A DNA stretch of 64,000 nt. Source: Malus domestica. Taxonomy: Eukaryota > Streptophyta > Magnoliopsida > Rosales > Rosaceae. Position 1 is the first letter of the stretch. Every line of letters starts with the position of its first letter. Shown piece after piece: positions 27,551 to 64,000 of this stretch. Made by a program: the position numbers and the translations under genes. Location of the stretch: assembly GCF_042453785.1 (NCBI RefSeq), contig NC_091670.1, positions 34,855,501 to 34,919,500 of the forward strand, in the 5' to 3' direction. The notes under the pieces were generated by a model. It saw only the letters and a program-made list of their open reading frames with translations. It made no database searches and was not told the origin of the DNA.

Positions 27551-28715
27551 TTGTCTTCAGGCATAGATATGAGGTTCATTATTGATTTGTTACCAGGTAT
27601 AAATTTATATTGGAGATTGGTTCAGGATGAGTTAAGGGAATTGGAAATTCAGTTGAGAGAATTGGTTGATAAAAGTTTTATTCAACCTAGTACAACACTT
27701 TTGAGGAGCCCCAGTTTGTTGGTGAAAAAGAAAATGGACTTAGAGATTGTGCATTGATTATAGACAATGGAATTGGTAACGATCGAGAACCGTTATCCAT
27801 GGTGCGTTGATGTTTGTTTGACCAGCTCAAAGGTATTTGTGTATTTTCAAAAGATTGATTGAGGTCTGGTTATTACCAATTGAAGATTTTGAGCGACATT
27901 GATCATAAGATAGTTTTCTGGACTTGTTATAGTCTTTATGAAGTTTGGTGATGCTATATGGATACTCATGCTGTTTTATGAGTTGATGGATGAAGTATTC
28001 CAATAATGCTTTGATAATTGATATCATTTTCGTTGAAGATATTCTGGCATATTATGAGCCAGAGCAGAGCATGTAAACGTATTAAGTCGGTGGAACAAAG
28101 ATTGGAAGAATGTCGATTGTATGCTAAGTTTAGCAAATGCGAAAGTTAGATGAATCAGGTGGCATTCTGAGATTGGTTATATCTGCTTAAGGTATTCAAA
28201 TGAATTCTTAAAAGGCAGCAGAATTGAGAAATTGGAACAACCACAAGCCATAATTGAGATTCGGAAATTCTTAACTTATCAGGCTATTTTGGATGGTTGT
28301 GAAAGAATTTTTAGTCATTGCTTTGTCATTGACAAGACTGTTGAGAAAGGAGGTTATGTATGAGTGGGAAGGAAATTGTGAGCAAAGGATTCAACAACTG
28401 GAGTATTTCCTCACTCATGCACGTATTTTAGTAATCCCAGAAGATAGCGGTAATTATTGGTTTATGGTGATGGTACATTAAATATTCTTGGAGATGTATT
28501 GATGCAAATGTTAGGGTGATTGAATATGTTTCACGACAAATGGAACCTAATGAGATGAATTACCCTACTGGTGACTTGGAAGTCACGATTATCATCCTTG
28601 CTGTGAAGTTGTGGAGACATTATATGTTGAAAAGAATGCAAGATTTTACAAATCAAAAGAGTCTCCAATATTTGTTTATTCGGAAGGATTTTGATATGAG
28701 GCAACAAAGGTGAAT
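27551..28715 (+). pseudogene. Gypsy reverse transcriptase / RNase H remnant
   Basis: 27620-27740 gives LRELVDKSFIQPS and SPSLLVKKK, the start of a gypsy RT. Downstream fragments in changing frames match the RT core (ENRYP, FDQLK), but many stops interrupt. 28290-28710 matches the RNase H end (SLTRLLRKEVMYEWEGNCEQ, then SRQMEPNEMNYPTGDLE and LWRHYML). Gag and protease are not recognisable in 25900-27500, and integrase is not found between 28715 and 29245. Confidence 0.75.
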
Positions 28716-29245
28716 TGTATTACTTAATGAACATGATGGTACGATCAGGGTGATCGTGAATTGTTGTAGCTGAAGCACTTGGTGAGAAGACTACAGTATG
28801 ATTAATGTCTGGCACGTTTGCCAAGAGTATCATCTTGTGAATTGAAAACCAACGGAAGAAAAATTAAGAATGGAAGATCGAGAAGAAGTTATACTTGTTA
28901 AATTTCAAGTTAGGCCTGTTTGGTAAGGTCGTACTCGAAACTTAAATGCTTGACGAAGAAATTTAAGAATTAACCAAGGTAGAGAAAGAAGGTAAGTTAA
29001 ATCCTAAGTGAATCGGACTTAAGTGATTATCGAAAAGTTGGTGAAGTTGCTTACAAGCTTGTGATGCCCTCAGAATTAAAACAGGGTAAGTGGTAAAAGT
29101 TTTGTGAAGAAATTATTCGGTGGAAGAAATTACGTGGGAGAAAGAGAATCGGATGAGAGAGATTTACCCGAGGCTATTGTATGAGTATGGTTGATTTAGT
29201 TGGTTGCTGGAATTTCGGGGACGAAATTCTATAAGGAGGGAAGAT

Positions 29246-44225: not shown

Positions 44226-45146
44226 TGTTGACCCTAGAAACTACAAAGCCTACGTGGCGCGTAGGCCGAGTATATTCTAAGCTAACTACGTCCTTTGGTG
44301 ATTGCGGGGCGTGTCAACTCGTCGGCCGAGGCTCGGCCGAGGAGTAAATTTGATGATGCTGCGTTGGGTCGCGCTACTGACTTCTACGTCTTGCGATTGC
44401 GGCCGAGAAAGGAACACGTCTCGGCCTCTTGGGTTCTCGAGCCTGAAGACAAGGCTGCTATTTCTTACAAAGTTCACGAACCGAATTCGGCTTGCAATGT
44501 GCCGAATGTAATAACTGTGACACCTCACCTCGCCGAGAAGGCTAATGAGATGACCTCGACCAACAAGGATTCGAAAACCCTTCTCGACCGAGACTTAGAT
44601 AGGTAATCGACCGTTCTCGCCGCAGTGCTGTTGATGCCAACGGAAGATACTGCGAGACCGACCGACTCTACGGTGACAGAGCTATCTATGCCGACTTAAG
44701 ATATCACCGGTTGCTTCCACAGTGCTGTTGATGCCAACGGAAGATGTGTCAGCGAAAAAAGGAAAAGAAAAAGATCTCAAGTTGTGAGAGTTGCGCAGGG
44801 CAATTTTGTATTGATTTTGTGGGGCTTCTCCTGATGCACAGCGTCCCCTATTTATAGTGCTGAACCTTGAGTCCGAGTTTAAATCCTACTCGGACTAGGT
44901 TTCCCTCTCCGGATTGCCTCGACCAGTCCTACATCTATTAGGACTATGAACCTAGTCCTTAGCTAAGCTGGATTAGTTTCCTGGATATCCGATCCCGTCG
45001 AGACTCCCCATTGCACCAGGATTCGTCCTAACCGCCCTAGGTTTGGATTCCCACGGGTTGACCGATCCATGGTCCTTTTACCGCCCGGCCTCCTGGGCCG
45101 AGAGTGATCCTACCCTCGGCCCAAACTATTATTTTGGGCCCAAACA
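44226..45146 (-). repeat. Tat element 3' LTR
   Basis: 921 bp. Contains a TATA box in element orientation (TATAAATA, plus 44849-44856), repeated GGCCGAG words and a duplicated CAGTGCTGTTGATGCCAACG (about 44623 and 44720). Confidence 0.95.
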
Positions 45147-45619
45147 TTGCCCCCTCGCTTCTGAGGTCCTCGGCCTGAAACCTTCGGCCGAGTTTCGGCC
45201 TTGAAGAAGCGAATCTACCACTCAGGATCCTACTACCCGCGTTCCAAGGCGCATTTATTGAGCACGATCGCACGATCTTGATCCTGCTAACCCATTCGCC
45301 ACATGGCGTCTTCTAACATGGCCAACTCCCCCATAATGACGTCTAAGGCGTGCGGCAGCCTGAACCGTCTTACCATCATGACCACTATCTCAATCCGCGA
45401 GCCACCACCTCAGTCCGTGAGCCCACTTGTCATCGTGCGGGCGTCGAACCGTCTTTCGTCATTAATTTTGCCGTCACACTCAATCGTGCGCCCCCAAAAC
45501 CCTAAAACCTTCGGTCTTCTCAACCGCATTTCCCAAATGTTCATCATGATCAACAATTCCTTCGATCGATTTTGCCCTTTGTTTTGAATTTCGAACGATT
45601 GCTCTACCTCCCATTACTC

Positions 45620-45627
45620 TATAAATA
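45620..45627 (+). promoter_or_regulatory. TATA box of the antisense PMD gene
   Basis: TATAAATA on the plus strand, 138 bp upstream of the ATG at 45765 and outside the LTR, in a CT-rich setting. It suggests the antisense gene has its own Pol II promoter in the element's 3' region. Confidence 0.6.
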
Positions 45628-45764
45628 CCGAAATTTCCTCATTTGTACTTTACGTTCTCAAACTTCCTGAAATCCCCTACCCTTGCTCTCAAGTGCATTC
45701 CTCAATTCCAAGTTTTCGTCCTCAAATCCCCAACCCAGAAAACCTCCTTACGCTGTGCTTTACA

Positions 45765-48700
45765 ATGGCCTCCTTCATCTCCAAGCTTTCCCAGGAATGC
45801 GACCAGCATCAAAAGATCCTTGATCGGAGCTCGATCAAGACTATACGGTTCGAGAACGACATGAGCACCGTCCACCAAATCCTGGGTCCTCTCTTCAAGG
45901 CAACAATCCCGCCGACCATCACTGGTCTTCTCCAGGAACATTGCCTTACACCCTTGCTCCAAGGGTTTGAATGGTCGAGATGGGAAGCGGCAAAGCCCCA
46001 AGGCTCCTGGCCCTCGACGACCACCACCTGGGCGACCTGGGTCGTCGGAATGGAACGGCTCTTCGGCGAAAAATGGAAAATCCTGGGTATCTACGACGCC
46101 ATCCTCCTTTCATCGATGGACGTTGTCCCTGACAAGGAGCTGCTCCTAGCCGCTCTATGCTTCTGGTGCTCAGCCACCAACACAATGGTCCTTCCCCTTG
46201 GTCCCATTGGTCCCACCATCCTGGACATCACCGCCATTGTGGGGACCTCGGCCACCGGGATCCCTGTCGACGCGACCCTCTCCGGGCACCCGTCGAATAT
46301 CGATCTGAAGACGCTCTTCGACCGTCGAGCCTTCGAGACCCTGAACAGTGACGGTCACATCCCGTCGAGGGATGAAATACAGAAGCTCCACAAGAACTTT
46401 CTCAACTACAACACCCTCTACCTTCACTTCGCCGGCCGAGGGGAAGAGGACCTGCAAGAGGGAGAGCATGAAGCCTTCCTCTTCTACTGGTACAACAAAT
46501 ACATTTGTTGTACCAAGTCAAACAAATGTTTGGTCGAGAATATGCCAGTGGCCGAAGCCCTGGCCAGTGGTCACGTCCTGGCGCTGAGTTCCAATATTCT
46601 TGCCCACCTCTACCGTTGCCTGGCCGAGGCGACTCTCCACACGGTGGACCCCCACCAGAATGGCCCTCTATGGGTCTTCCAGCTCTGGTTGCAGGTGTAC
46701 TTCGCCTCCCTTCGGCCGGCTATAGCTGATTTCTCAGCAACAGAGGCTCTTGGTCCTCAGCTAGCCTCCCGACCAACACCTCCTCATCAGGCCGAAGAGA
46801 TATTTAGGTACCTCTTTGCCCTTGACGATCTCTCAAGCGACGAATTCCTGATTTGTCGTCGTCGCGACTACCCCCCTCCATCAGACTGCCTACCTCTACG
46901 TGGGCCGCAGAGGAGGATGCCGCTCTTCGCCAAACCTGGGGGTCGTTCGTGCTTGCTCACGACCTTCCTCTCGGCTGCGACGGGAAACGGTCGGGGTGGG
47001 AAGTGTACCATCCGAACTTCCTTGCCCGTCAGCTCGGCTATCTTCAGGGCTGTCCCGTCCCCCTTCTCTCTTCCCGCACAGTCTTGAGCCGCGGACGCGA
47101 GCCTCGCTCTTCAGAGAACGAGTGCAGGACAGCCGCGAAGGAATTTCAAGAGTACTACCAAAGATTTCGCCTTCGACCGGCCACCCCAGAAACCCATTGT
47201 ACTGACACCTTCGGTGAGTGGTGGGAAAATTACACTCAGGAGTTCTTCGGTGCGCCGGTCGAAAATGTGCTAAGCAGGCTCTTCGGTGACCGACCTAAGA
47301 AAGCCCCGGCCCCCCATTCTCAAGGTAGTTGTTCAATTCCCCCTTTTTTCTTCAACCTTGCATATTGTACACCCTACTGAATTGTCTTTATCCTTTTAGG
47401 TAGTCGGCCTTTGAGAAAGACGGAGGCAGTTGCCGCTGCTACGGCCGGGAAAAAATCGGTCGTGGCCCAAAAGGACAAAACCGCTGGTAGGGCCGTGCTA
47501 ATCAAACGGCCTCGCCAAGAGGCCGGGCCGGCTATCGAGTCTTCCCCGCCTGCCAAGCGGGTCAAACAACTGGCGAAGAAAGGTGCACGGGAGATCCACG
47601 TTATCTCCAGCCACATGACGACTCCTAGTGCTTCCCCTTCTCCCGCCGCCGGCCATTCCGGGGTCAAGAAACAGCCGGCTTCGGCCATAGAGACGGTCCC
47701 AACGCGGCCTGCCTCTGTGGCCGGCGAATCAGTCGTACCTCCCTCTGTCGAGAAGGCACCTGTCTCACACCAGGCGGTTCCTACGACCGAGGAAACCTCT
47801 CCCAAGAATCCAAAGCCCACGGTCTTCGTGTTGGAAGAGAGTGAGAGGAGCGACGAGGTCCCGCTGGCGCGTCGTCCTCCTACTCGTCAACAACCTCCTC
47901 CAGTATCCGAGATGGCGGTTCAACCCGGCCCCTCCTCTGCTAATCGTGGCAAGCGCACGGTCGAGGAACCGACCGCGGCGGCCGAACCTCTCGTTCCTTC
48001 CCAGGACCAGAACGTCCCTGCCTCCACTGAAGCAGCTGCGCCAGTCGGCCCATCGGCAGCCGACCGTGGCAAACGCCTGCTCGAGGAACCCAAGGCCACG
48101 GCGGAATCGCCGGTCCATCCTCAAGACCAAGGCTTCCACATCCCTCCACAGGAGGTTACCTCGGCTTTTGTAAGTACCTTCAATTTTCCTCCTGATTGCT
48201 TTTCTGCTTTAGAATTCTAAACAAGGAAAAACTAAATGTCAGGTGCCTGTACATTCTTTTCACCGTCAATTCTATGCGCCGAAGGGCGTTATCTATATTT
48301 CCTGGCCGCCTCAGTGGCCATCAAACGTAGATAACCTCCATCGGCCGCGTGAAGTGAGAAGCAATCTGAAACATTGGGCTCGGCCATTGAGTTCTTTAGG
48401 TTCGAGCAACAACCCTGGGGACATGGCCGAGGTCTCTTCTCGGCAGGTTAAAAAACGACACCTTCTTGCTATTCTTGCCATGACTTCCTTTAAGCTTAAC
48501 CTTGTCTATTCGTGCAGGCTTCATGGGAGGTTGAATTCAAAGCTCTCCTCTCCAGCACGACCGCAGAGTCCGGCCCTTCGGCCGCTCCGACTGAGGCTGC
48601 CGATCCAAGCGCCCTATCCCAATTGCGAGAAGTCCTGTCGCTCTCATCATCGCAAGTACTTGAGCGCAACGGTCTTGATCTGCTCGGCGTGTGTCTGAAC

Positions 48701-49132
48701 GACCTTGGAGCCGACGGTCGCCTGAGCGGAGATGCCATTGTTCGGGCATCGTCTGCCTTGGAGCGCGTTCGGGAGACATTTAGCATCTTCCAGACTACTC
48801 TGAAGGCCGAACAGGACCTGCAAGCCGCCACGGCCGTTCAAGACACCCTCCGTCCGAAGATTGACGATCTACGGGCAAAAGGAGAAGCGTTAGCCGAGCT
48901 CGACCGTCAAATGGCCGAACTAGCAAAACGCCGTTCGGTCATCGCTTCTGAGCTTGCGAGGGACTTCGAGTCAGGCGGGAAGGATCGCCTAACTGAGTAT
49001 GCGGCGGCCAAAAAACGGGCCGAGCGCCTGAGGCTGGACAAAAAGAATCGGCAAGCCGAAGTCATCATGGCCGACGTGCGGTGGTTGGAGTTGAAAGCTC
49101 TGCTCAGCACTCTTCTTCCCTCGTCTCCTTGA
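45765..49132 (+). CDS. Plant mobile domain protein with coiled-coil tail, carried antisense inside the Tat element
   Basis: Four exons on the strand opposite gag-pol: 45765-47324, 47400-48169, 48243-48446 and 48518-49132, all with GT-AG introns of 71-75 bp. Exon 1 encodes a plant mobile domain (aminotransferase-like PMD). Short markers are WATWVVGMERLFG, LLAALCFWCSATNTMVLPLGPIGPT and FLFYWYNKYICC, then HPNFLARQLGYLQGCP. Exon 2 is a low-complexity, proline/alanine/lysine-rich linker. Exon 4 is helical and charged (LRAKGEALAELDRQMAELAKRR), a probable coiled coil. The length would be about 1050 aa. A frame change at about 46871-46905, near a C6 run, breaks exon 1, so this copy is probably not translated in full. 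PMD proteins occur both as host silencing factors (MAIN, MAIL1) and in transposons. It ends 75 bp from the integrase frame, tail to tail. Confidence 0.78.
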
Positions 49133-49206
49133 ATGTATTCGACCTACCCATTTTTGTAATACCTATCAATTTTAATGGAATGATTTTTTCTACAACAATT
49201 TTTTTT

Positions 49207-50640
49207 TTATTCACGCATTTCCCATGTGACCGGATAGTATTTCTTCAAGAACTTCCCATTAATCGGTAATTTGTGAACTACTCCAGTCCGGTCTTTAAGA
49301 TGATACGCCCCTTTGCCGTATACCTTATGCACAATGAACGGCCCTTCCCAATTCGGCGACCACTTGCCGAACCTAGGATCTTTTATTCCTACGGGCAACA
49401 CCGTTTGCCACACCAATTCACCCTCGCCGAACGTTTTTTGTCGTACCTTTTGATTATAGGCTCGCTCGGCAATCTGTTTTTGTGCCACCAGTAAGTTATA
49501 AGCGTCAAGTCGCGCCTCTTCCAAATCTTCTAGTTCCTGTCTCATGGACTGATTATATTCGGCGCTAAACAAACTACTTTGTTCAATTAATCGCAACGAA
49601 TTTATGCTCAACTCGACTGGTAGCACCGCATCGTGCCCATAAGTCAATGCGTATGGGGTTGTTGCAGTCGCCGATCGGGGCGACGTTCGGTATGCCCATA
49701 ATGCCTCGTTCAACTTCAAATGCCACATGCCAGGCCTTTCTTTTATTATTTTTTCGAGGATGCCAATCAACACTTTATTACTTGCCTCGGCCTGCCCATT
49801 CGCCTGTGGATAATACGGTGTGGACTGTTCCAGCCGAATTTTCAAATTGGCCGTGTATTCCTTAAACCTTTCGGCTGTGAAGATTGTTCCATTGTCGGTT
49901 ATGATCGTTTCTGGCACACCGAACCGGGTCACAATGTGTTCCTCCACAAAATCGCAAACTTCTTTAGATGTTAACTCGGCATATGATTTTGCTTCGACCC
50001 ACTTAGTAAAGTAATCAGTTGCGACTATTATCCATGCATGCTTAGTAGCTCCAGAAGTCGGCGTGATTTTACCGATTACGTCCATGGCCCATCCTCTAAA
50101 CGGCCACGGCTTAATGACCGAATGTAGCGATTCGGCCGGGACCCTTTGTATAGGCCCATGGATTTGGCACTGCACGCATCCTCGTGCAAACTCGATACAA
50201 TCCTTTAGTATCATTGGCCAAAAATAGCCGTGCCGTCGAAGTAGCCATCGCATTTTCCGTCCAGACTGGTGAGCTCCGCATACCCCTTCATGAACCTCTG
50301 CGATCGCTCGAGCACTCTCTTGGGGGCCAAGGCATAGCAATAACAAACCATCTTCGCCCTTTCGGTACAACTCGTTCTGGTACGTGACATAGTTCGTGGC
50401 GTGAGCCCGTGTCCTGCGACTATGTTTTCCGTTAGGATTGTCAAGGTACTGCATAATGGGCTTTCTCCAATCATCTGGTACTGCCTCGGCCGCGCAAATG
50501 TCTATAGAGTCCTGCCGATCTAACAACGAAGGCAAGGACATGACCCTGGTGCGTATCACATTGTCTCGACGGAGGATTTGCTGATCAACCAAGGCCGGGT
50601 ATAATTGTTGTAATATTGGTATCTCCCGGCCTAGCTTGCC
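49207..50640 (-). CDS. Tat integrase region of pol
   Basis: Open frame with the zinc-binding HHCC segment (EGVCGAHQSGRKMRWLL, then CVQCQIHG) and the DDE core: aspartates in WAMDVIG and IITDNGT and the glutamate in GQAEASNKV. A C-terminal part with SINSLRL and FGKWSPNWEGPF follows. The frame stays open up to about 50640, where it fails to join the RT frame. The switch lies at a C5 run (50639-50643), fitting a one-base length change. No ATG at its start, so it would be made only as part of pol. Confidence 0.9.
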   Translation of the reverse strand, partial: GKLGREIPILQQLYPALVDQQILRRDNVIRTRVMSLPSLLDRQDSIDICAAEAVPDDWRKPIMQYLDNPNGKHSRRTRAHATNYVTYQNELYRKGEDGLLLLCLGPQESARAIAEVHEGVCGAHQSGRKMRWLLRRHGYFWPMILKDCIEFARGCVQCQIHGPIQRVPAESLHSVIKPWPFRGWAMDVIGKITPTSGATKHAWIIVATDYFTKWVEAKSYAELTSKEVCDFVEEHIVTRFGVPETIITDNGTIFTAERFKEYTANLKIRLEQSTPYYPQANGQAEASNKVLIGILEKIIKERPGMWHLKLNEALWAYRTSPRSATATTPYALTYGHDAVLPVELSINSLRLIEQSSLFSAEYNQSMRQELEDLEEARLDAYNLLVAQKQIAERAYNQKVRQKTFGEGELVWQTVLPVGIKDPRFGKWSPNWEGPFIVHKVYGKGAYHLKDRTGVVHKLPINGKFLKKYYPVTWEMRE

Positions 50641-52781
50641 CCCAGGAGTTGTGCACCGGAGGCGATTTGAGCCAAATCGTCTGCATCGGTATTATGAACC
50701 CGAGAAATATGCTCGAATGTAATACCGTCAAAGGACTCGGCCAAATAGCTGGCGACCATGTGGTAAGGCGCTAGAGTACAACTCATGCAACGAAAAGACC
50801 CATTAATTTGGTTAATCACTAGTTCAGAATCCCCGAGGACGAGGACACGAGTGGCATGTAGGTCAAGAAGGAGGCCTAAACCAATGACTAAAGCCTCGTA
50901 TTCGGCCTGATTATTGGTGCAGTCGAAATCCAATTTGAGCGAAAAATACCAACGATCGTTGTAAGGAGATTGAATGACGATGCCTACGCCGGCCGAGGAC
51001 GAAGTACTGGAACCATCGAAATACATCGTCCAATAGTTGTCGCGGGTCACCACCATGCCAATCTCGACATCAGCACCCCCGAAATCGTAAGGCGAAGGGT
51101 GCTGGGCAAGGAAATCGGCCAACGCCTGTCCTTTCACAGCTTTTTGCGGCACGTATTGCAAACTAAACTCGGACAACGCCATCGTCCATTTCCCAATTCG
51201 GCCCTTCACAATTGGCCGGGTAAGCATGTACCGGATAACGTCGGTCTGGGCAATGACTTGGGTGACCGACGGGAGCATGTAATGCCGAAGCTTGGATGCA
51301 GCGAAGAACACGGCGAGACAGAGCTTCTCAACGGCGGAATAATTGATCTCCGGAGGACTCAGATTACGGCTAAGGTAAAAGATAGCCTGTTCCCGCCCGG
51401 CATCGTTGTCTTGCGCGAGGAGGCAACCGATGGACTCGTCGACCGCCGAAATGTACAGCTTGAGAGGCTTACCGCGCTGAGGAGGGACCAGGACAGGTGG
51501 GTTTGTAAGGGAAACCTTGATCTGCGTGAACGCCGCCTGGTGCTCCTCATTCCACATGAACTTATCTGAGTCCCTGAGCTTCAAAAGTGTGGAAAATGCT
51601 TTCATTTTACCTGCCGAATTAGCAATAAATCGGCGTAAAAAATTGATCTGGCCGAGTAAGGACTGTAATTGTTTCTTCGTTGTTGGGGGTGGGGCGGTGA
51701 CGATTGCGCGTGCCTTATTCTCATCGACTTCAATCCCACGATGATGTACGAGGAAACCAAGAAAATTCTCGGCCGATACACCGAAGGCACACTTGGCAGG
51801 ATTCATCTTGAGGTTGTGCTGACGCATACGGAGGAAAGCCTGTCGGAGATCGTCCAGATGCGTCTGTCGGCGTTTAGATTTGACGACAACATCGTCGATA
51901 TAAACTTCGACGATGGTGCCAATTAAATCATGGAAGATGGTGTTCATCGCCCGTTGGTACGTGGCGCCGGCATTCTTGAGGCCGAATGGCATGACAACCC
52001 ATTCGTAAGTGCCGAGTGCCCCCGGGCAACGGAAAGCAGTTTTGTGCACATCGGCTTCGGCAATAAATATTTGGTTGTATCCGGCATGTCCATCCATAAA
52101 GGATAAGATCGCATGATTCGCCGCGGCATCGATTAACAGATCTGAAATCGGCATTGTATACTCATCCTTGGGCGTTGCCAGATTCAGATTTCGAAAATCG
52201 GTGCAGATGCGCAGCGCACCACTTTTCTTTAATACAGGAACAATATTCGCCAACCATTCGACATATCGAGCTGTCCGAATGAACCCGGCTTTCAAAAGCC
52301 GAACTAGTTCGTCCTTGACACTGAGTTGTACTTCGGTCGAGAATCGACGAGGTGGCTGACGGAAAGGCTTGAATCCGGGCTTAATACGTAATTCATGCTC
52401 GACTAAAGCACGATCTAAGCCGGGCATTTCATGATAACTCCAAGCAAAACAATCTTTGAATTCCGTAAGCAAGGCCCGCAACTCGTCCTTCATTTGTTGA
52501 GGAAGTAACGCACTAATAAACAAAAGTCGTGGGTCATCGGCCGTCCCAACATTAATCTCTTCCAAAGGGTCCTTAACAAGGGGCCGATGATCTTCGAGCT
52601 CGGCCGGGGCGGCTCGAATTTTATCAAAAGATAATACAGGCCCATTATCTCCCTCAGCAAGGAACTCGACGAGGTTGACGCCCGAATTTGGTTGTTTAGA
52701 TATCGTATACCAATGGGCCAGCAGTCGTTCCATAGTAGATGAAACCGCGGCCCTACGTGCTTCCCGATCGGCGTCAAACAT
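50631..52781 (-). CDS. Tat reverse transcriptase, RNase H and archaeal-type RNase H
   Basis: 716 aa frame. RT shows VMPFGLKNAGATYQRAM and the catalytic YIDD in VEVYIDDVVVKS, then FLGFLV. RNase H shows FYLSRNLSP and SKLRHYM, then GKWTMALSEF. A second RNase H follows (MYFDGSSTSSSAGVGIVI, NNQAEYEALVIGL), the extra domain known from Tat elements. Its ATG (52779-52781) overlaps the TGA of the preceding frame in ATGTTTGA. This could be a break or an expression feature. It ends at TAG 50631-50633, just past the C5 run. Confidence 0.92.
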   Translation of the reverse strand: MFDADREARRAAVSSTMERLLAHWYTISKQPNSGVNLVEFLAEGDNGPVLSFDKIRAAPAELEDHRPLVKDPLEEINVGTADDPRLLFISALLPQQMKDELRALLTEFKDCFAWSYHEMPGLDRALVEHELRIKPGFKPFRQPPRRFSTEVQLSVKDELVRLLKAGFIRTARYVEWLANIVPVLKKSGALRICTDFRNLNLATPKDEYTMPISDLLIDAAANHAILSFMDGHAGYNQIFIAEADVHKTAFRCPGALGTYEWVVMPFGLKNAGATYQRAMNTIFHDLIGTIVEVYIDDVVVKSKRRQTHLDDLRQAFLRMRQHNLKMNPAKCAFGVSAENFLGFLVHHRGIEVDENKARAIVTAPPPTTKKQLQSLLGQINFLRRFIANSAGKMKAFSTLLKLRDSDKFMWNEEHQAAFTQIKVSLTNPPVLVPPQRGKPLKLYISAVDESIGCLLAQDNDAGREQAIFYLSRNLSPPEINYSAVEKLCLAVFFAASKLRHYMLPSVTQVIAQTDVIRYMLTRPIVKGRIGKWTMALSEFSLQYVPQKAVKGQALADFLAQHPSPYDFGGADVEIGMVVTRDNYWTMYFDGSSTSSSAGVGIVIQSPYNDRWYFSLKLDFDCTNNQAEYEALVIGLGLLLDLHATRVLVLGDSELVINQINGSFRCMSCTLAPYHMVASYLAESFDGITFEHISRVHNTDADDLAQIASGAQLLGAS

Positions 52782-52949
52782 CGGTTTCGGGGAGAAAGTT
52801 AGCTAATCCGAGTCTCGCCGAATCCTGCTGGACAGTCTCGGCGCCAACCTCGATAGCTTTCTGAACGGAAATCCGAGTCGGCCGTCCCTCTTCATTGAAG
52901 CCTTGCAACGTAATATAGCCGACGTGATCGTCATAATACCGTGCTTGAA

Positions 52950-55900
52950 TCATGTTGGCTTCGAAGGGCTGGCTATGGCCGGATGAACAGTGACCGATTT
53001 GCCGTCCCAAAAGACAAGCACTTGGTACAACGAGGAAGGAATACAGCTGGTTTGATGAATCCAATCTCGGCCGAGCAGTGCATTATACTCGGTTTTGGAA
53101 TCAACCACGAAAAAGGCGGTCATATGGGTGCGACCGGCAATATTCACAGTTAACGGAAGCACACCTTTAGTGTGGGACTTGTCGCCGACAAAACTGCTCA
53201 TTGTGATCCCCGACGGAATAAGTTCGTCATTTGAACGGCGCAAGGCCTTCATGATGTTCAGGGGCATGATATTGACAGTAGCTCCACAATCGACGAAAAC
53301 TTTAGAAACCGGATATCCCTCGATGTGTGCCGTTACATACAATGGCTTTAAATGGTGAAGTTTGGCGGATGATAAACGAGGGAACAATTCGGCCAAAGCA
53401 GCCTTTAGACTATCATCTTTTGTTGTTGGCTCGCCTTCAGCAATTGATACAAAATCCACATGGCCGGGTTCCTCAGCAACCACATCTCCATCGAGGAAAT
53501 TTGGTTGAGCCGTGCTTGATTGAAAATCAGCAGGTAACACATGAACCATACTGATTTCCATATTATCCAAGACTGACGGGCCCAACTGGTCAAGACCTTC
53601 CTCGTTCGGTTGGTCAGCGACTACGTATTCAGTTATCGTCAGAGTCGGACAATGAGATTCTTCCGTCCCTTCTTCAATAATGTCACTCGGCGGAGCCGCT
53701 TCGGCCACTTGTTGGTTCTGCGTGATCGCCTCAGGTAAGGTCGAGATTGACAATGAACTTGGGGTCAAAACCTGAACCTGCTCCTGGTAGTGTAGCCGAG
53801 CATCCCTAGTGTCAAGATAAGCATCCAGACGGGCAATACGTGCGATTTCATCGGTCATAAGGCCGAAGAGAGAAACCGCCGAAAATACTTCAAAGTGATA
53901 CCGTAAATACTGAAGGTCCTCCAGCGAGAAAGGAAGGTCGGCTGCATTGATATCGATGTACGGGTCGACTTCAAACCCAAAAACACGAGCTTCTCGTATG
54001 TGCTGGAACCTTGCTTTCAATCCGGGGTCTGAGGTTTTCTGGATGATCCGCTCGGCATCCGGACAAGTCAGGATTAGATCAATGATGTCCTGGCATGCCT
54101 TCGGCAAACCATATAGATCGTTGGCCGAATGACTCTTATGAAATTCTCGCATATACTCTAAAGACTCCCCAAGGAACGGGGGATGCAAATTCCGTCTAAT
54201 TTTGACCAAAGGCTCTTGCATAGCTAGCGGGGATAATTTGCTTTCGGCCTCTTGCCTGAAATGTTCAAAACGTGCCTTCATTTCCCCCGGTCGAATGAGA
54301 AGTTTGATCCGTTTATCAGCTGCTTCAAACATGGTCTCGACATCTTGATCGACCAACCGTTTCCCCTGAGCCAACTCTGTCATAATTGCTGGAGGTGGTC
54401 GGTCCTCTTCAGTGGCAACTATATCCTTCGGCCGCCACTTAGGGGCCGAAGCTTCTTGGGCTACTTGTCGTCGAGCCATGCAATCTATCCGTTGATGCCG
54501 GCGTTTCTGAGATTTGGACAACGCGGTGTAAACGCCCCTCGAAGAATGGTATGTATACCAACGTTGATCTCTAGGCTCGGGAGGCTTGAAGGTCTTTTGA
54601 CTCCGCGATGATCCTGAACCGCTAAAATTACGCTTATAGTAATCATCGTCATAAAATGAAGCATCAAAATCGAGGCGCCGCCTGACCGGGGGTGTCTCTT
54701 CCACCCGTGCTTTAGGACCGAGCCTCCCAAAAACCCCATGATGTTGGTTTTCATTGGCTATCTTTTGCCGAGTTACGGCCATGGGTTGCGAAGAAGGCTT
54801 CTCCTCTGGTTCATTGTCGACCTTCGCTTTACATTTCCTACACAGAACCGCCGTCCCACTATCTTCATCGGCGCTACACTCCGTCATAGATTTGACAAGA
54901 GCGAGCCCCGTTAAGGCCGCAGATGGTTTATTCGAACGCGAATCGGCCATGAACCGTGGCCGAACATTCTGATTCCACGGGCGTTGTGTCTCAACCACTT
55001 CAGCCTTGCCTTTCCCTTTGTCCTTGGGTAGGTACGCGTCGACCATATTTACTGTTGCCGTGGGGAACGGATCAGTATCAACACTCATCCTCTTCTCGGG
55101 GAACTTCAGTTTGCCATTATCAATCCAGCTTTGGACGTTATCACGAAATACGACGCAATTGTTTGTCGTGTGTTTGCTCGAATTGTGGTATTTGCAATAC
55201 GCATTTCCTTTAAGCTCTTCGGCCTTAGGAATGTTATGACCGGGCCGAAGCTTAATGATTCTTGCTGATAACAGTTGGTTAAAAATTGCGTCAGCCTTGG
55301 TGATATCAAAAGTATAAACCTTTGACGGTTTCGATGTTCCTTCAGTGGCCGAGCGACTTTTGGCTTCTCTAGAATCAACCTGAGTCAATGCCTTGCAAAT
55401 GTATGGCTTATCTATTACTATCTCAGCCGCATCCACACTAACACATTCATCATCGGTTGATGCATAATTAACAGTAGGGTTCTTGTAAATCGTTCCCCGA
55501 GTTGGGGTCTTCGAAGTCTTTTCCTCACGGAGCAAATAATCATACTGCTCGACATGTTGGGCCAATTCGTACATATCCCGAAAATTTGCCCCCAAGAATT
55601 TCTTTTTGTATTTGACGTCGAGGCCATTCAAAGCAAGCCTGACAAATTCGACTTCGGGTAAGGGCACTCGATACCAATTCCTGGTCGATTTGAACCTGGT
55701 AAGATAATCCATTGGTGACTCATCAGATGCTTGAGCCATCCGTGCTAACGAAGAGACTGACATCTCCATCCCCGGCCGATAAAACTGCTCGTGGAACTTC
55801 TCGACCAACTCCTCCCAATTTTGGACAGAATTAGGCGGGAGATTGATGTAACAGGCAAACGCCGAGCCGGTCAATGAAAAATTGAACAGCCATAACTTGT

Positions 55901-56717
55901 GGAAATCACTATTAACATCTCCGCATTGCGCGGTGAAACGAGCCACATGCTCCAACGAAGACAGGGACGATTCACCAGCAAAAAGACTAAAATCTGGGAT
56001 CTTGAAACCCTTCGGGTACCCAAACGTCTCCACGTAAGCTGGGTACGGATGAATAAACTTGGGAAACTTTGGCCCTTTCTTCATGGCCGAGTCGATCATC
56101 CGCTGAACTTCGGTCATATCAACAGGTGTTGCTTCGACCCTCTGGTTGGTCCCGTCTAACCTGCTATTCGACCCTCCTCCCTTCTCCAAGTTAATTGGTT
56201 TAAGCGGGGCAGGAATGGGTTCGGCCGGTACAATCGATACCGAGTTGTTTCCTGGTAAACAATGTTGGCGAAGATCAAAAGGCCTGCTGCCACCAACTTG
56301 ACTAACCAACATTTCAAGCAGCCTGGTTTGTCGATCATTGGAACTGAGTATCGCGTCATGCAGCTTGTCAATGCCTCGACTAAACGTCTGCTCGACTGAC
56401 CGAGACTGCTCGTCCAGTCGCTTTCGAAGAAACGACCTTGTTGGTGGATCAGATCCTTCACAACCATCCTCGTCACACTCTTCTACTATCCCTTCAGTGA
56501 GAATGCAGGTGTTCCGGTTAGGGATTTCTGGACCGCGGAGTTGACTGCCGAGATTAACTTCTCTCTCTCGGCGGGTCGCACTCGTGGACTCAGGTGTCAC
56601 GGCGCCAATGGGATTCTGCGCTTGTGGCACACTTTGTCCCGTGCTTTGATTCGGCAAATCAGCTATCGACTTTCCCATAGTGATTTTCTTTTTTACCGAT
56701 CGTGTTTCAATTGGCAT
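52950..56717 (-). CDS. Tat gag-protease
   Basis: 1255 aa frame from ATG 56715-56717, 43 bp inside the 5' LTR edge. The gag capsid-type domain is at about residues 245-395 (PDFSLFAGESSLSSLEHV, WEELVEKFHEQF, SDESPMDYLTRF). A reduced zinc-binding stretch CKYHNSSKHTTNNC follows, then a CxxC. The aspartic protease near residue 1145 reads VFVDCGATVNIMP (DCGA in place of DSGA, usual for this lineage) and ends with ALLGRDW. The frame runs out at 52950. The reading continues in another frame (52774-53064), so a one- or two-base change near 52990 separates protease from pol. Confidence 0.92.
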   Translation of the reverse strand: MPIETRSVKKKITMGKSIADLPNQSTGQSVPQAQNPIGAVTPESTSATRREREVNLGSQLRGPEIPNRNTCILTEGIVEECDEDGCEGSDPPTRSFLRKRLDEQSRSVEQTFSRGIDKLHDAILSSNDRQTRLLEMLVSQVGGSRPFDLRQHCLPGNNSVSIVPAEPIPAPLKPINLEKGGGSNSRLDGTNQRVEATPVDMTEVQRMIDSAMKKGPKFPKFIHPYPAYVETFGYPKGFKIPDFSLFAGESSLSSLEHVARFTAQCGDVNSDFHKLWLFNFSLTGSAFACYINLPPNSVQNWEELVEKFHEQFYRPGMEMSVSSLARMAQASDESPMDYLTRFKSTRNWYRVPLPEVEFVRLALNGLDVKYKKKFLGANFRDMYELAQHVEQYDYLLREEKTSKTPTRGTIYKNPTVNYASTDDECVSVDAAEIVIDKPYICKALTQVDSREAKSRSATEGTSKPSKVYTFDITKADAIFNQLLSARIIKLRPGHNIPKAEELKGNAYCKYHNSSKHTTNNCVVFRDNVQSWIDNGKLKFPEKRMSVDTDPFPTATVNMVDAYLPKDKGKGKAEVVETQRPWNQNVRPRFMADSRSNKPSAALTGLALVKSMTECSADEDSGTAVLCRKCKAKVDNEPEEKPSSQPMAVTRQKIANENQHHGVFGRLGPKARVEETPPVRRRLDFDASFYDDDYYKRNFSGSGSSRSQKTFKPPEPRDQRWYTYHSSRGVYTALSKSQKRRHQRIDCMARRQVAQEASAPKWRPKDIVATEEDRPPPAIMTELAQGKRLVDQDVETMFEAADKRIKLLIRPGEMKARFEHFRQEAESKLSPLAMQEPLVKIRRNLHPPFLGESLEYMREFHKSHSANDLYGLPKACQDIIDLILTCPDAERIIQKTSDPGLKARFQHIREARVFGFEVDPYIDINAADLPFSLEDLQYLRYHFEVFSAVSLFGLMTDEIARIARLDAYLDTRDARLHYQEQVQVLTPSSLSISTLPEAITQNQQVAEAAPPSDIIEEGTEESHCPTLTITEYVVADQPNEEGLDQLGPSVLDNMEISMVHVLPADFQSSTAQPNFLDGDVVAEEPGHVDFVSIAEGEPTTKDDSLKAALAELFPRLSSAKLHHLKPLYVTAHIEGYPVSKVFVDCGATVNIMPLNIMKALRRSNDELIPSGITMSSFVGDKSHTKGVLPLTVNIAGRTHMTAFFVVDSKTEYNALLGRDWIHQTSCIPSSLYQVLVFWDGKSVTVHPAIASPSKPT

Positions 56718-56760
56718 GAACTTCGTAGTTTAGCACTGGGTCCCACTGGGCGTGCCAAAA

Positions 56761-57681
56761 TGTTGACCCTAGAAACTACAAAGCCTACGTGGCGCGCAGG
56801 CCGAGTATATTCTAAGCTAACTACGTCCTTTGGTGATTGCGGGGCGTGCCAACTCGTCGGCCGAGGCTCGGCCGAGGAGTAAATTTGATGATGCTGCGTT
56901 GGGTCGCGCTACTGACTTCTGCGTCTTGCGATTGCGGCCGAGAAAGGAACACGTCTCGGCCTCTTGGGTTCTCGAGCCTGAAGACAAGGCTGCTATTTCT
57001 TACAAAGTTCACGAACCGAATTCGGCTTGCAATGTGCCGAATGTAATAACTGTGACACCTCACCTCGCCGAGAAGGCTAATGAGATGACCTCGACCAACA
57101 AGGATTCGAAAACCCTTCTCGACCGAGACTTAGATAGGTAATCGACCGTTCTCGCCGCAGTGCTGTTGATGCCAACGGAAGATACTGCGAGACCGACCGA
57201 CTCTACGGTGACAGAGCTATCTATGCCGACTTAAGATATCACCGGTTGCTTCCACAGTGCTGTTGATGCCAACGGAAGATGTGTCAGCGAAAAAAGGAAA
57301 AGAAAAAGATCTCAAGTTGTGAGAGTTGCGCAGGGCAATTTTGTATTGATTTTGTGGGGCTTCTCCTGATGCACAGCGTCCCCTATTTATAGTGCTGAAC
57401 CTTGAGTCCGAGTTTAAATCCTACTCGGACTAGGTTTCCCTCTCCGGATTGCCTCGACCAGTCCTACATCTACTAGGACTATGAACCTAGTCCTTAGCTA
57501 AGCTGGATTAGTTTCCTGGATATTCGATCCCGTCGAGACTCCCCATTGCACCAGGATTCGTCCTAACCGCCCTAGGTTTGGATTCCCACGGGTTGACCGA
57601 TCCATGGTCCTTTTGCCGCCCGGCCTCCTGGGCCGAGAGTGATCCTACCCTCGGCCCAAACTATTATTTTGGGCCCAAACA
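56761..57681 (-). repeat. Tat element 5' LTR
   Basis: 921 bp, about six substitutions from 44226-45146. The promoter TATA in element orientation is at plus 57384-57391. The primer-binding site abuts at 56742-56760. Confidence 0.95.
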
Positions 57682-59541
57682 GGTATATACTCAGTAATAA
57701 AACAAAACCAATATTTTTGTACGTGTGAGTTCAGGTTCTAAATCCAATCACTTCTTTTCTTCCATACGAATTTAATTTATACTTTCACTTTGTATGTATT
57801 AATGTCAGACGCAGTATGTTGAATGTATTATACTAGAATTAGAATAATTAATCTGATCTGAATGCAGTGAATTATATAGAACATTACTTCAACAGCTTCA
57901 AATTTATAAACCTAAAACAATTAATTGCAGCCATAAAACTAAAAAACAAATAAAAACATCATGGCAAAATCCCCTATGTTCTGGAGCCCAAAGAAAAGCC
58001 CAATGTTCAAATTCGTCCAGCCCGGCCCGTCCAATATTAAAGAAACCCATCATCCTCCTGGACACTCTCACTCCCAAACTCTCAGACCTCAGTCCCTCGA
58101 CAGTTCCCTCGACTCCAATCGTCCTCCCCCTCACCAACCGTCGATTCTCCTCGGCGAACACAACGGCACCACCCATCATCCTCCTCGACAACATCCCAGA
58201 GAACCCAGGCCATCACCCCTGCCGTCGATTCTCTCCTCTTAGACAGTAACCCCGGCCGTCGTGACCGCCATCACCCCATCACCGTCGTCGAGGACACTGG
58301 TACCAGTCATCATCCCTCTAAAATTTAGGTAATTTTGAATTAGGGTTTTGTTATTAATTTGAATTTTGGGTGTAGGAATTTTAAATTGGAATTTGGGATT
58401 TTAGGGTTTTCGAACTAGGTTACTAGAGTTATTTTGCAGTAGATTGATGATTGAATTGGTAATTTTGCAGTAATTTGGCAAGCTTTGATGCCTTCTAACT
58501 TCTAAGTTCTTAAGGAAATTAGATACTAGATTAGTAGAGAGTGTGAGTCTATACATTTCTTCTTCCTTTTGAGTTGAGTTGGATCTTGGATGCAAAAACT
58601 GGTCAAAATCTTGGTCTGCATCTGCACCACAATCATTTTTCATGGAGCTTTCGAGCCCCACTCTGAGTTTGACAATATGTAGTCTCAAACCATTTGGTCT
58701 GTTAGAGCACGGAGTCGTGTTCTGCATATGCATTAGTATTTGGCTTTACCCTCGGCCCCTCATCTGCATATCAAATTTCGCTTTGATTGCTGTTGCAGTT
58801 GTGTCAAATGTCCAACCTTCATCCACCGTATAAAACGCTCTTCTGTGTAAAGGATCATTGATGAAAAATTACAAAATTTCGTTTGTCCTCTTTGATTCAA
58901 AAAATGATCTTTGAATCTGAAAATGCCGTGAAGAAAATTGAGTTGCTTTATCTATTGGTATCCGAGGAATACTTTAGGTTTTCTAAATTTCCAGTCTGTT
59001 AATTTGGTAGTCCTACAATCTTGTCATTCCTGGATCAGAAGCAGACCGGAATATTTTTTTTTACTTTGTGAAGCTGCTACTAGCATTTCTGTTAATAATT
59101 CCTCTATTTCCTAAATATCATTTATCATACTGTTTTATTGTAAATTTCCCAAATGGTCTAGACTCTAGAGTAACTCATGTTTATGTTGTTTTGGATTATT
59201 TGATTCTTGGAATTTGGATGTCTTGGACTTTCGGAAATTTTGTATGTTGATTTGTTTTTTGGATGTTGGACGATTTAATATTGTTATTTTGGATGTATTG
59301 TTAATCTATGAACTTGGATGTTGGACTTTGTATTTAGATTGGATGTGAATAATGGTGAATTTGTGCAAAATCTGCATAAATGCAATATTCCCAAATCCTA
59401 ATGTTGGACTTTAGGATATCTAATCTGAACCGTTTGTAATTAAAATGCAATTAAATCCTAACGTTGGACTTTAGGATATTCCCATCTTGTATACTTTAGG
59501 ATATTCATCAAAATGCAATTAAATCCTAACGTTGGGCTTTA
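57682..59541. other. Intergenic
   Basis: Frames at 57961-58242 (plus; 93 aa, proline/histidine/serine-rich), 57904-58194 (minus), 58579-58833 (plus) and 58401-58733 (minus) overlap each other and match no family I know. 59395-59540 has three imperfect copies of a unit with AATCCTAACGTTGGACTTTA. No gene is supported. Confidence 0.45.
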
Positions 59542-60944
59542 AGACACAATAAAATAAATTAACTTTTATAAAACCAAATTACTTCATATAATAAAGCAAC
59601 TCAACTGCACTGGGATTGTTGGCCAAAAACAAAATACACTACAGGCAATGATGGTTTAACAAAACCCAATATAATATATCAGTTAGAAAGGGGCCAAGCG
59701 ACCAAGGGAATTTCGAAAAATTAAGTCAGGTAACTAGATATTTCTTTTTAATGTCAACAAGTAACTAAATTTTAATAGATTAATTTTGCGTTAACAGTTT
59801 CATACAGCCTGCAATATCTAAATTAATAACCTTATGGTTCCAATCATTTAATCAAATCATTTGTTATCGAAACTTTCCAGTCCTTTAATCTAAACATTAG
59901 TTATTGAAACTTATGAAATATACTGTCATGCTTGAGTTCAAACTTTCCAACTTCATAGCTACATCTCAAAAAATTCTCTTTGTTAACGGTAAAACATGCA
60001 AGTCTGCAAAGGAGGTAGAGGTATAAACGTACCTGATTTCGAGCTAGAAGGAGATGCTCAGCTTCAGTCTCGAGCTCAATTAAGCTTTTCTGGAACTGCT
60101 TCATGGTCTCATCTATTCTTTACTCCTCAATAAGTATCCACCTAATCGTATTCTGAAACATAAGCCATTATATGCTATTCTTAGTCTCTAAAAGAAAACT
60201 TTGTCAGGGCATAGAAACCAAAAGAGTGGTCTAAACGGAAACATGTCATCCGCTTTAAAACCCGGTCATCCCAAGAACAAACACAAAGACGAGCAAATAT
60301 GATAATATACAAAGAAAATCTAAAAACAAGTGAAGGAGAAAGAAACATAAGAATCTCATCAACTTTCCAAGCAATTTAGACATCTCCCATCAAAATTTTC
60401 TTGCTTAGACAGAAAACATTATTATCTGACTGAAAAATATCTAGCCCCTTCTAATACACTTGAATTCAAATACAGTGTAAATATCAAGCCAACCACACCT
60501 ACTTAGTCTAATAATCATACAAATAACACAAAATAAGCAACCGTCCACACTCTAAATCTCAAAAATCCGAATTAATGATGCAGAAATAATAATGTAAATC
60601 CAAAAATCAGAAGAAAAATTAGCAAATGTATTAAATACCAAAAAAAAAAAAAAAACCAAATCAAAGAAATACCTGATCAAAGAATGGAGACGATTAGATG
60701 ATTTGTTGGGAATATTAGTGTGGGTAGATGAGAAGCGGTGCTAAACCCTAGAAATTTAAAAGGGGAAGAACAATACCAAATTGAAAAACGATGCTGATTC
60801 ATTTGTAATTGAGGATACGAGATGGAAATTGCAAATATTCACAAGGGTAATTTCGGTAATTTAGTCGAAATACCCCCTATCTGTTTCCCCTGTCAAACTT
60901 TTGGCAGTATACTAAACACGGGCTTTACTCGGTATTGCGTAATG
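59542..60944 (-). repeat. Left arm of a 1.4-kb inverted duplication
   Basis: The reverse complement of this stretch matches 61173-62551 along its whole length. It carries a mirror copy of the PDRG1-like gene's promoter, 5' UTR with its intron, first coding exon and most of intron 1. Outer edge: AAGACACAATAAAAT here against ATTCTATTGTGTCGT at 62540. Inner edge: GGTATTGCGTAATG here against CATTACGCAATACC at 61173. By eye the arms differ by scattered substitutions and small indels, a few percent. Confidence 0.92.
60033..60116 (-). pseudogene. Mirror copy of PDRG1-like exon 1 with lost start codon
   Basis: Same length (84 bp) as the real exon 1 and bounded by a donor-like CAG|GTACGT. The first codon is ATA where the gene has ATG. 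The next ATG (60102-60104) is four codons in. There is no exon 2 or 3 on this side, so no complete protein can be made. Confidence 0.85.
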
Positions 60945-61172
60945 TTTAGATTAAAGGATTGGAAAGTTTCGATAACAAATGATTTGATTAAATGATTGGA
61001 ACCATAAGGTTATTAATTTAGATATTGCAGGCTGTATGAAACTGTTAACGCAAAATTAATCTATTAAAATTTAGTTACTTGGTGACATTAAAAAGAAATA
61101 TCTAGTTACTTGGCTTAATTTTTCAAAATTCCCTTGGTCGCTTGGACGCTTTCTAACTGATATATTATATTA
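60945..61172 (+). repeat. Spacer of the inverted duplication, a third copy of an intron-1 segment
   Basis: The 228-bp spacer matches about 62218-62440 of intron 1 in direct orientation (TTTAGATTAAAGGA, then ATATTGCAGGCTGTATGAAAC). The left arm holds it inverted at about 59680-59890. The segment thus occurs three times in 3 kb and may be a small mobile or recombining unit. Confidence 0.8.
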
Positions 61173-62551
61173 CATTACGCAATACCGACTAAAGCCCGTG
61201 TACAGTATACTGCCAAAAGTTTGACAGGGGAAACATATAGGGGTATTTTGGGTAAATTACCGAAATTACCTTTGTGAATATTTGCAATTTCCATCTCGTA
61301 TCCTCAATTACAAATGAATCAGCATCGTTTTTCAATTTTGTATTGTTCTTCCCCTTTTAAATTTCTAGGGTTTAGCACCGCTTCTTATCTACCCACACTA
61401 ATATTCCCAACAAATCATCTGATCGTCTCCATTCTTTGATCAGGTATTTCTTTGATTTGTTTTTTTTTTTTGGGTATTTAATACATTTGCTAATTTTTCT
61501 TCTGATTTTTGGATTTACATTATTATTTCTGCATCATTAATTCGGATTTTTGAGATTTAGAGTGTGGACGGTTGCTTATTTTGTGTTATTTGTATGATTA
61601 TTAGACTAAGTAGGTGTGGTTGGCTTGATATTTACACTGTATTTGAATTCAAGTGTATTAGAAGGGGCTAGATATTTTTCAGTCAGATAATAATGTTTTC
61701 TGTCTAAGCAAGAAAATTTTGATGGGAGATGTCTAAATTGCTTGGGAAGTTGATGAGATTCTTATGTTTCTTTCTCCTTCACTTGTTTTTAGATTTTCTT
61801 TGTATATTATCATATTTGCTCGTCTTTGTGTTTGTTTTTGGGATGACCGGGTTTTAAAGCGGATGACATGTTTCTGTTTAGACTACTCTTTTGGTTTCTA
61901 TTCCCTGACAAAGTTTTCTTTCAGAGACTAAGAATAGCATATAATGGCTTATGTTTCAGAATACGATTAGGTGGATACTTATTGAGGAGTAAAGAATGGA
62001 TGAGACCATGAAGCAGTTCCAGAAAAGCTTAATTGAGCTCGAGACTGAAGCTGAGCATCTCCTTCTAGCTCGAAACCAGGTAAGTTTATACCTCTACCTC
62101 CTTCTTTGCAGACTTGCATGTTTTAGCGTTAACAAAGAGAGTTTTTTGAGATGTAGCTATGAAGTTGGAAAGTTTGAACTCAAGCATGACAGTATATTTC
62201 ATAAGTTTCAATAACTAATGTTTAGATTAAAGGACTGGAAAGTTTTGATAACAAATGATTGGAACCATAAGGTCATTAATTTAGATATTGCAGGCTGTAT
62301 GAAACTGTTAACGCAAAATTAATCTATTAAAATTTAGTTACTTGTTGACATTAAAAAGAAATATCTAGTTACCTGGCTTAATTTTCGAAATTCCCTTGGT
62401 CCCTTTCTAATTGATATATTATATTGGGTTTTGTTAAACCATCATTCCCTGTAGTGTATTTTGTTTTTGGTCAACAATCCCAGTGCAGTTGAGTTGCTTT
62501 ATTATGTGAAGTAATTCGGTTTTATTGAAGTTAATTTATTCTATTGTGTCG
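61173..62551 (+). repeat. Right arm of the inverted duplication
   Basis: Contains the upstream region, the 5' UTR intron (61444-61959), coding exon 1 and intron 1 of the PDRG1-like gene. The arm stops 46 bp before exon 2 (62598). Confidence 0.92.
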
Positions 62552-63701
62552 TGTTAGTAACACAGTGGAGGATTGTGTTTGTTATATGAAAACGCAGATG
62601 GTTGAAAATGACAGGGTGAGGAATGGGAACAGAGAAGCACTTACATCTCTGAGGAAGATAGCTCGGACAACCAAAACTAGCGTTCCATCTCCTTTCGAGT
62701 CAATAATGAAGGAGATTGGAGGGCCTCAATCAAGACCTCTGGTGAAGGAGGTATGCCCTACCTGTGGCAACCATGACTCAAATGACCGTACTTGGATGAT
62801 GTTCCCGGGAACTGATGTCTTTGCAAGGATTCCATTTCATGCTGCCCATACCATCTTGGAGACAGGTTTTCTCTCAAGCCGCTTATTTTTCATTTTATGC
62901 AACTATTTGGGACATATATCAACTGTATCAGTAAGAAGTTTAACTCTTTCACATATCAATATGTGCATTTAACCATATCCCGATGGATTAATGAGTAATC
63001 TTGAATGTCCACTGTAGTAGCCCTTGTGAGCAAAAAGGGTTAAATAAACTATTTAGGATCTTTTAATAAATTGGTTGAGTTATTTATGAATTCTTAAACT
63101 CTTGAAGCTCTAGTGTTTTGTTTAAAAGGCCTATAGATGTTCATGAAGGTGCCATCTTCTTAATGCAATTTCCATTAAGCTTACAAAAGGAAGCTATGCT
63201 TGAGATTACCTTGGCAAATTTGAAATAAGATCAGAGGGATTTGTCCAGCAAACTTTTAATTTGTCGACTTCATAGTGTTCTTGCTTGTCAATCATAATTT
63301 CTCAAACTTAACCACTGATGCTTCTAAGAGGAATTCATTCGAGTTTTTAGATATGTATTGTTGTCCAGTCTCTTTTACCGCCAAAGTTGGGAGTATGGCT
63401 CGTGAACTCTCAGAATTCATGAGCTTTCATCTGTGCTTTCTTTTTCTATGTTTTATAGATATATTATTTTATAAGTCGAATGCTTTGTAGCTTCATTATT
63501 TATTTTTCAGAAAGAAGATTCTGAACTTTTGGTTGTTGCCTTTACGATGCAGAACAAGAACAACTTGATTTAGACTCTAGAAGGTTGCAAGGCATTGTGA
63601 AGGAGAAATCCCTTGTGATTTCGGGCAAAGGTGCCCTTGCTGATAAGATCTGTCCGGGTGTGCTGAAGTCCTTGGTAACCCTGACAGACAAACCAAGGTG
63701 A
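61996..63701 (+). CDS. PDRG1-like (p53 and DNA damage-regulated 1) protein
   Basis: Three coding exons: 61996-62079, 62598-62865 and 63553-63701. They total 501 nt (166 aa), with GT-AG introns in frame. The ATG at 61996 follows a 5' UTR that itself seems split by an intron (61444-61959, CAG|GTATTT to TTTCAG). The product is a small helical protein: MKQFQKSLIELETEAEHLL at the start, then NGNREALTSLRKIAR. A CPTC motif lies near residues 81-84 within CPTCGNHDSNDRTWMMFPG. The last helix is DLDSRRLQGIVKEK. It resembles the Arabidopsis At3g15351 type annotated as p53/DNA-damage-regulated. Animal PDRG1 is a prefoldin-like subunit of the R2TP/URI complex; a similar chaperone role here is inference. 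Its promoter and exon 1 are duplicated head to head upstream. Confidence 0.85.
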
Positions 63702-64000
63702 ATTGTGCTTGATGCATTAATATTCAATTCTGTTATAACCTCACATCCACGCCCAACTAAGGAGAAAAGGAATGAATGTTAATCACTCTGGCTACCATCA
63801 CAGACAGAGCTCCGTGTAGACTAGTGTTCATAATTTTTCCATTGTAGCTCTGGTGCTGTTAACATCAGAAGTTTCGCCAAAACGGGGATTGATTGGAATG
63901 GAAAAGCTAGCAGTTGTCACATACTTGCAGAATAGGAAAAGTGTGATGTATCATATTGAAGGGATTCATAATTTTGTTGTTAAACGCTATATTTTTGTGC
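63702..64000. other. 3' region of the PDRG1-like gene
   Basis: Probable 3' UTR and start of the next intergenic stretch. No other gene is seen before the window end. Confidence 0.5.

Follow-up and report, generated by a model that had tools for sequence, protein, structure and literature searches.

The window, i.e. the whole analyzed stretch of 64,000 nucleotides of Malus domestica DNA on C10, carries on its plus strand an intact PDRG1-like gene whose three-exon frame encodes 166 amino acids. Coding exons 1 (61996–62079) and 2 (62598–62865) are delimited by the open frame and GT-AG signals, and exon 3 (63553–63701) contains the stop codon, an alternative acceptor at 63559 reducing the protein to 164 amino acids. 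The name PDRG1-like, taken over from the original prediction, seems plausible on the basis of the protein sequence: between residues ~26 and 48, 11 of 23 positions are shared with human PDRG1 (E 6e-4, in a single comparison), and Pfam yielded no family at cut-off for this protein. A relative of solved structure was discarded, the sole match having a meaningless E value of 0.84. The Arabidopsis PDRG1 (AT3G15351) is described as a prefoldin-like subunit of unknown function (PMC10893143). Elsewhere in the window two LTR elements were mapped, one at 44226–57681, whose frames lie on the minus strand, whose 921-bp LTRs differ by 6 substitutions and which has the 5-bp target duplication GGTAT, and a second one at 22961–31974 with LTRs of 2.7 kb, 4 substitutions and the target duplication ATACC. 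The minus strand at 438–4279 holds what we take, by the look of its TIR, NB-ARC and LRR parts, to be a disease-resistance-like gene, the LRR region of which is a run of 141-bp direct repeats. Furthermore, the stretch 35604–36092, which is missing from C5, includes an imperfect palindrome of about 370 bp (35604–35970, 79% self-complementary) that looks like a small inverted-repeat transposon.

The 5′ half of the PDRG1-like gene is accompanied by a head-to-head inverted duplication of itself, which proved real and whose outer coordinates lie within about 1 base of those originally predicted. BLAST comparison of the window with itself pairs 59543–60945 inversely with 62550–61172 (95.4% over 1406 gapped columns), and the global alignment of the two arms contains 34 substitutions in 1376 ungapped columns, comprising 23 transitions and 11 transversions (K2P 0.025), together with six gap runs of 1, 4, 3, 13, 1 and 8 bases. 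Since the longest exact inverted match within 58500–64000 spans 273 bases and the maximum in 100 first-order Markov resamples was 20, a chance origin of the repeat is excluded. The inner ends of both arms coincide in base, 60945 mirroring 61172. Two nearly identical arms of ~1.4 kb had thus been recognized correctly, but not their separation of 228 bp: the spacer measures 226 bp (60946–61171), or 232 bp if a 6-bp overlap with the left arm is included. The substitutions are unevenly spread, the longest identical run of 273 columns being reached in only 79 of 5000 permutations; arm-to-arm gene conversion is therefore possible and may have blurred the dates given below.

The left, mirror arm (59543–60945, minus strand) carries the promoter, the 5′UTR exon with its intron, the first coding exon and the larger part of intron 1, its homology to C7 covering 59541–60910, and the right arm (61172–62550, plus strand), delimited by self-comparison and arm alignment, is the 5′ half of the real gene. 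In correction of the original prediction, each arm comprises ~0.2 kb of promoter, the 5′UTR exon and the intron that follows it, coding exon 1 and 471 bp of intron 1, which is 518 bp long, with exon borders deduced from GT-AG signals and the open frame, i.e. from sequence alone. As had been proposed, the promoters of the two arms diverge and point outward. The innermost 35 bp of the right arm (61172–61206, plus strand; mirrored at 60911–60945) have no C7 homology, which begins at 61207, and a 69-bp query covering 61172–61240 matched only the two arms in the genome search. These 35 bp may represent C10 sequence adjoining the inserted gene copy. A full inverted gene that was later cut down was rejected, no trace of exons 2 and 3 or their introns (62551–64000) being found in 57682–59542.

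Coding exon 1 is unchanged in the right arm. Its mirror copy (60033–60116, minus strand) has lost the start codon, ATG having become ATA at 60114, and its donor GTAAGT reads GTACGT; C7 has ATG and GTAAGT at these positions. Even so, the in-frame ATG at codon 5 leaves a potential frame of 67 amino acids, which runs into the intron. The mirror arm is thus a 5′ end with a putative promoter but without its start codon. Polarized by C7, the arm differences comprise 19 left-arm changes, 13 right-arm changes and 2 unclear ones, one of the 13 (61189) lying in the 35 bp without C7 homology. The 5′UTR exon and the start of its intron (61367–61534, mirrored at 60578–60749) are part of a dispersed repeat: 16 short matches, among the 22 listed for the left arm, fall within left-arm positions 1036–1207. 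C1 does not align over 61367–61534, and since C1 is the homoeologue of C7, this 5′ end may have been acquired by the C7 gene only once the genome had been duplicated.

The spacer turned out to be a third copy of an intron-1 piece. In the orientation of the gene, 60946–61171 repeats the right-arm piece 62216–62425, and the copy overlaps the left arm by the 6 bp TAATGT at 60940–60945. Including this overlap, 60940–61171 matches 59668–59899 inversely with 7 mismatches in 232 positions and 62216–62425 directly, with deletions in the right copy. Two of these deletions (13 and 8 bases) occur in the right arm alone, the left arm, the spacer, C7 and C1 having retained the bases. The nine private substitutions among the three intron copies are distributed as 5 in the spacer, 1 in the left arm and 3 in the right arm, and the excess in the spacer over an expected third has a P value of 0.145; although the spacer has most of them, the counts are compatible with one event. 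Compared with C7 and C1, the G in AAAAAGAAAT is a C10-specific base common to the spacer and both arms. A second candidate is the T of TAATGT, an ambiguous base within the overlap, which leaves only one clean C10-specific base tying the spacer to C10. As the same piece is also present in the unduplicated introns of C7 and C1, it is ordinary intron sequence. Terminal inverted repeats are lacking in the spacer itself.

The gene is not the only one of its kind in the genome (651 Mb, 19 contigs), as seen in a DNA search with the left arm as query, a search that may miss more distant copies. The 22 matches listed consist of the left arm itself, the right arm, a copy on C7 (91%), a copy on C1 (85% over 872 bases), the spacer and 17 short matches spanning 68 to ~170 bases. 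The C7 match extends over 61207–64351 of C10 with 93% identity and the C1 match over 61698–63957 with 85%, the coding exons being 94–99% identical to both. In the 9901 bases retrieved at each of these two loci, C7 and C1 are free of inverted self-matches at E 1e-4. Between C10 and C7, 6 of 501 coding versus 133 of 2599 non-coding columns differ (P 1.6e-5). When the C10 branch is taken by itself, however, 3 coding changes stand against 40 non-coding ones (P 0.14), and purifying selection on the C10 copy itself is thus unproved.

Pairwise, the arms differ at 34 of 1376 positions, the right arm and C7 at 83 of 1321, the left arm and C7 at 93 of 1345, the right arm and C1 at 150 of 972 and C7 and C1 at 154 of 1006. 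The arms are thus 2.5% apart, versus 6–7% between C10 and C7. In the tree the two arms are sisters to the exclusion of C7 and C1 (support 100/99). Given this sister position and arm and C7–C10 divergences of ~0.16 and 0.41 of the homoeologue distance, respectively, the inverted duplication is younger than the C7–C10 split. With generic plant rates, which may differ from that of this species, the arms would be 0.8–2.1 million years apart, and conversion between them would make this age too young. The LTR retrotransposon at 44226–57681, which is absent from C5, was probably inserted after the inverted repeat had formed, because its LTRs differ less than the arms (P 9e-4).

The homoeologous site on C5 is empty. 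C5 is collinear with C10 on the left, where 57819–58045 corresponds to C5 37203789–37204017, and on the right, where 64445 onward corresponds to C5 37204134 onward; between these flanks lie 116 bp on C5 versus 6399 bp on C10 (58046–64444). The 6399-bp insert begins with a stretch of 1.5 kb (58046–59542), delimited by the C5–C10 comparison, which is followed by the inverted repeat and the gene and, at the right end, by a short dispersed repeat. The latter, a GC-rich piece just past the copied gene (64362–64438), is dispersed, with at least 27 occurrences among the 45 matches listed. C7 and C1 also match past the 3′ end of the gene, and for this reason C7 is taken as the older and C10 as the newer site. 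Since C5 is empty and the arms differ by 2.5% compared with 6–7% between C10 and C7, we conclude that a C7-like gene came to C10 and that the inverted duplication arose there later. The arrival of the gene on C10 may have involved a transposon.

Considering these comparisons, the inverted duplication is likely to stem from the repair of one double-strand break with template switching, an origin that fits the sequence better than a transposon or an assembly artefact. From the three intron copies, their borders, the order of divergence and the unduplicated relatives we infer the break, the polymerase steps, their order and the enzymes as follows. After a copy of the C7 gene had come to sit on C10, a double-strand break would have occurred upstream of this copy, at a distance of 35 bp. 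By means of a 2-bp match in intron 1 of the right fragment, the left end of the break (now 59542) would then have primed synthesis and copied the gene backwards up to the tip of that fragment (now 60945). Subsequently, the last six bases, TAATGT, would have annealed to a TAATGT in intron 1, and extension over a further 226 bp would have produced the spacer before the strand and the right-fragment end (61172) were joined. The product of such steps would be the order reverse complement of the 5′ half, templated filler and gene, with 59542 and 61172 assumed to have been adjacent formerly.

A break at 61172, of which one side was copied up to its tip, would explain the symmetry and the shared end of the arms without coincidence. 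At the left spacer junction, the 6-bp microhomology TAATGT (60940–60945) is of a kind that occurred in 0.04% of 200,000 random inverted junctions, and at the outer junction (59541–59542) the 2 bp AA would match, provided that 62550 was formerly followed by T, the state of C7 and C1. The filler is templated from nearby, the spacer copying intron 1 from a distance of ~1.3 kb. Templated insertions and fillers copied from the flanks of breaks are reported for polymerase theta repair in Arabidopsis (PMC10923293), and similar copying steps are described for microhomology-mediated break-induced replication, MMBIR (PMC2621351). An Arabidopsis T-DNA line is reported to carry a 20-kb inverted duplication joined by a 652-bp plastid filler (PMC8348815). 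Break-induced replication may be the better fit than theta repair, considering the great length of the copied arm (1.4 kb) and of the filler (226 bp); the fillers cited above for theta repair are not described as this large (PMC10923293). The event on C10 shares with these systems the microhomology, the flank-copied filler and the inverted duplication beside a filler (PMC10923293, PMC8348815, PMC2621351), but it is natural and older, its arms measure 1.4 kb and its filler stems from inside the duplicated gene.

A transposon could have produced the structure by capturing the piece, by providing the arms as its long terminal inverted repeats or by alternative transposition; for Ac, sister-chromatid transposition is reported as able to generate flanking inverted duplications (PMC3744419), and mobile DNA is indeed close by, with the dispersed repeat at 64362–64438 to the right of the gene and another one covering the 5′UTR. 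We regard this as distinctly improbable, considering that the spacer lacks terminal inverted repeats and equals intron sequence common to C7 and C1, that no target-site duplication was seen at the outer arm ends when compared by eye, and that the 35-bp inner ends do not occur elsewhere in the genome at the search threshold. The more specific proposal that the spacer is a transposon inserted at the centre of an older palindrome was rejected on the grounds of the C7 and C1 introns and the missing terminal repeats. It is harder still to believe in an artefact of library or assembly, i.e. a fold-back read or the false join of two haplotypes. Head-to-head structures are reported to give low-quality reads and misassemblies (PMC8348815), but the arm differences are mostly transitions (23 of 34) and are polarized onto both arms, which moreover share changes versus C7, and the spacer adds a third version, marked by private changes, which two haplotypes cannot supply.

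A different question is whether the repeat, however it was made, acts as a silencing locus, in which RNA across both arms would give rise to small RNAs repressing the gene on C10 or those related to it on C7 and C1 in the manner of PAI1-PAI4 or SULF. The arms are long and near-perfect, with 273 bp exact, the coding exons are similar enough to those of C7 and C1 to make them possible targets, and other inverted gene duplications can silence according to the published accounts (PMC3203196, PMC5223194, PMC9750854, PMC12371187). The original prediction held that read-through across either gene start would yield a hairpin. Folding supports the hairpin as such, as 1359 of 1417 predicted pairs in a transcript of the full repeat connect arm to arm, but not its source: the promoters diverge, each transcript carries one arm, and a hairpin would need RNA synthesis that starts outside the repeat. 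No promoter pointing inward is known, and the LTR retrotransposon at 44226–57681, the only mapped element just to the left, has its long minus-strand frames pointing away from the repeat. Long-lasting methylation would show as an excess of C to T changes at CG. Such transitions account for 4 of 23, compared with CG making up ~9.5% of cytosines (P 0.27), and hence show no concentration; the C-bearing allele lies in the left arm in 9 cases and in the right arm in 14 (P 0.40), without arm bias. CpG dinucleotides number 21 in the left arm, 17 in the right arm and 23 in the same stretch of C7, and the CG sites of C7 are kept at 15 of 22 positions in the left arm and 12 of 22 in the right arm, a slight shortfall that can be read either way. 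The sequence thus suggests no strong methylation footprint, which argues weakly against heavy methylation and not at all against weak or recent methylation. None of 4227 Rfam families reached the gathering score in the window, a result still compatible with a new small-RNA locus. Taken together, a silencing function appears unlikely. An effect in trans on the unlinked C7 and C1 genes is as conceivable as the effect in cis originally proposed. Less likely again is the fuller version of a young trans-acting silencer, in which a hairpin of rare leftward or read-through RNA would supply small RNAs that span promoter and exon 1, methylate the C10 promoter and repress the C7 and C1 genes; if it were true, a repair scar would set the dosage of a prefoldin-like subunit of the PAQosome. 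With break repair as the likely origin, the mirror arm would be a bystander next to an intact gene; it may have a regulatory role, but nothing indicates one.

Among the known silencing systems, PAI1-PAI4 of Arabidopsis Ws consists of whole genes arranged tail-to-tail with an outside promoter, for which methylation and small RNAs have been reported (PMC3203196). The locus on C10 resembles it as an inverted gene duplication with unlinked single relatives elsewhere in the genome, but it is head-to-head, covers half a gene and has no known inward promoter. Similarly, SULF of Antirrhinum, MIR1444, MIR161 and MIR163 contain an inverted copy of a protein-coding gene or of part of one (PMC9750854, PMC12371187, PMC5223194). 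These loci are reported to make small RNAs acting on the target gene, whereas any small RNAs of the C10 locus would be hypothetical; the MIR1444 model, as described, is tail-to-tail in contrast to the head-to-head repeat on C10. A search of the literature found no paper on long inverted repeats with gene fragments and none on this locus, the latter being weak evidence. The nivea alleles of Antirrhinum, reportedly semi-dominant silencing alleles linked to Tam3, are reported to have an inverted copy of the chalcone synthase promoter and 5′ end before the gene. The literature search did not confirm this account of the inverted copy, and unlike nivea, the C10 locus has no known transposon or phenotype.

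The inverted repeat is of a known kind, and it is of value because the steps of its formation are finely resolved. It represents a natural case with readable steps, as three copies of an intron piece, two unduplicated relatives and the homoeologous empty site are available within one genome. Some MIRNA and silencing loci of plants are proposed to have started as inverted gene duplications, and cases with a known order of events, even apparently inactive ones, can serve as controls for when such a repeat starts silencing.
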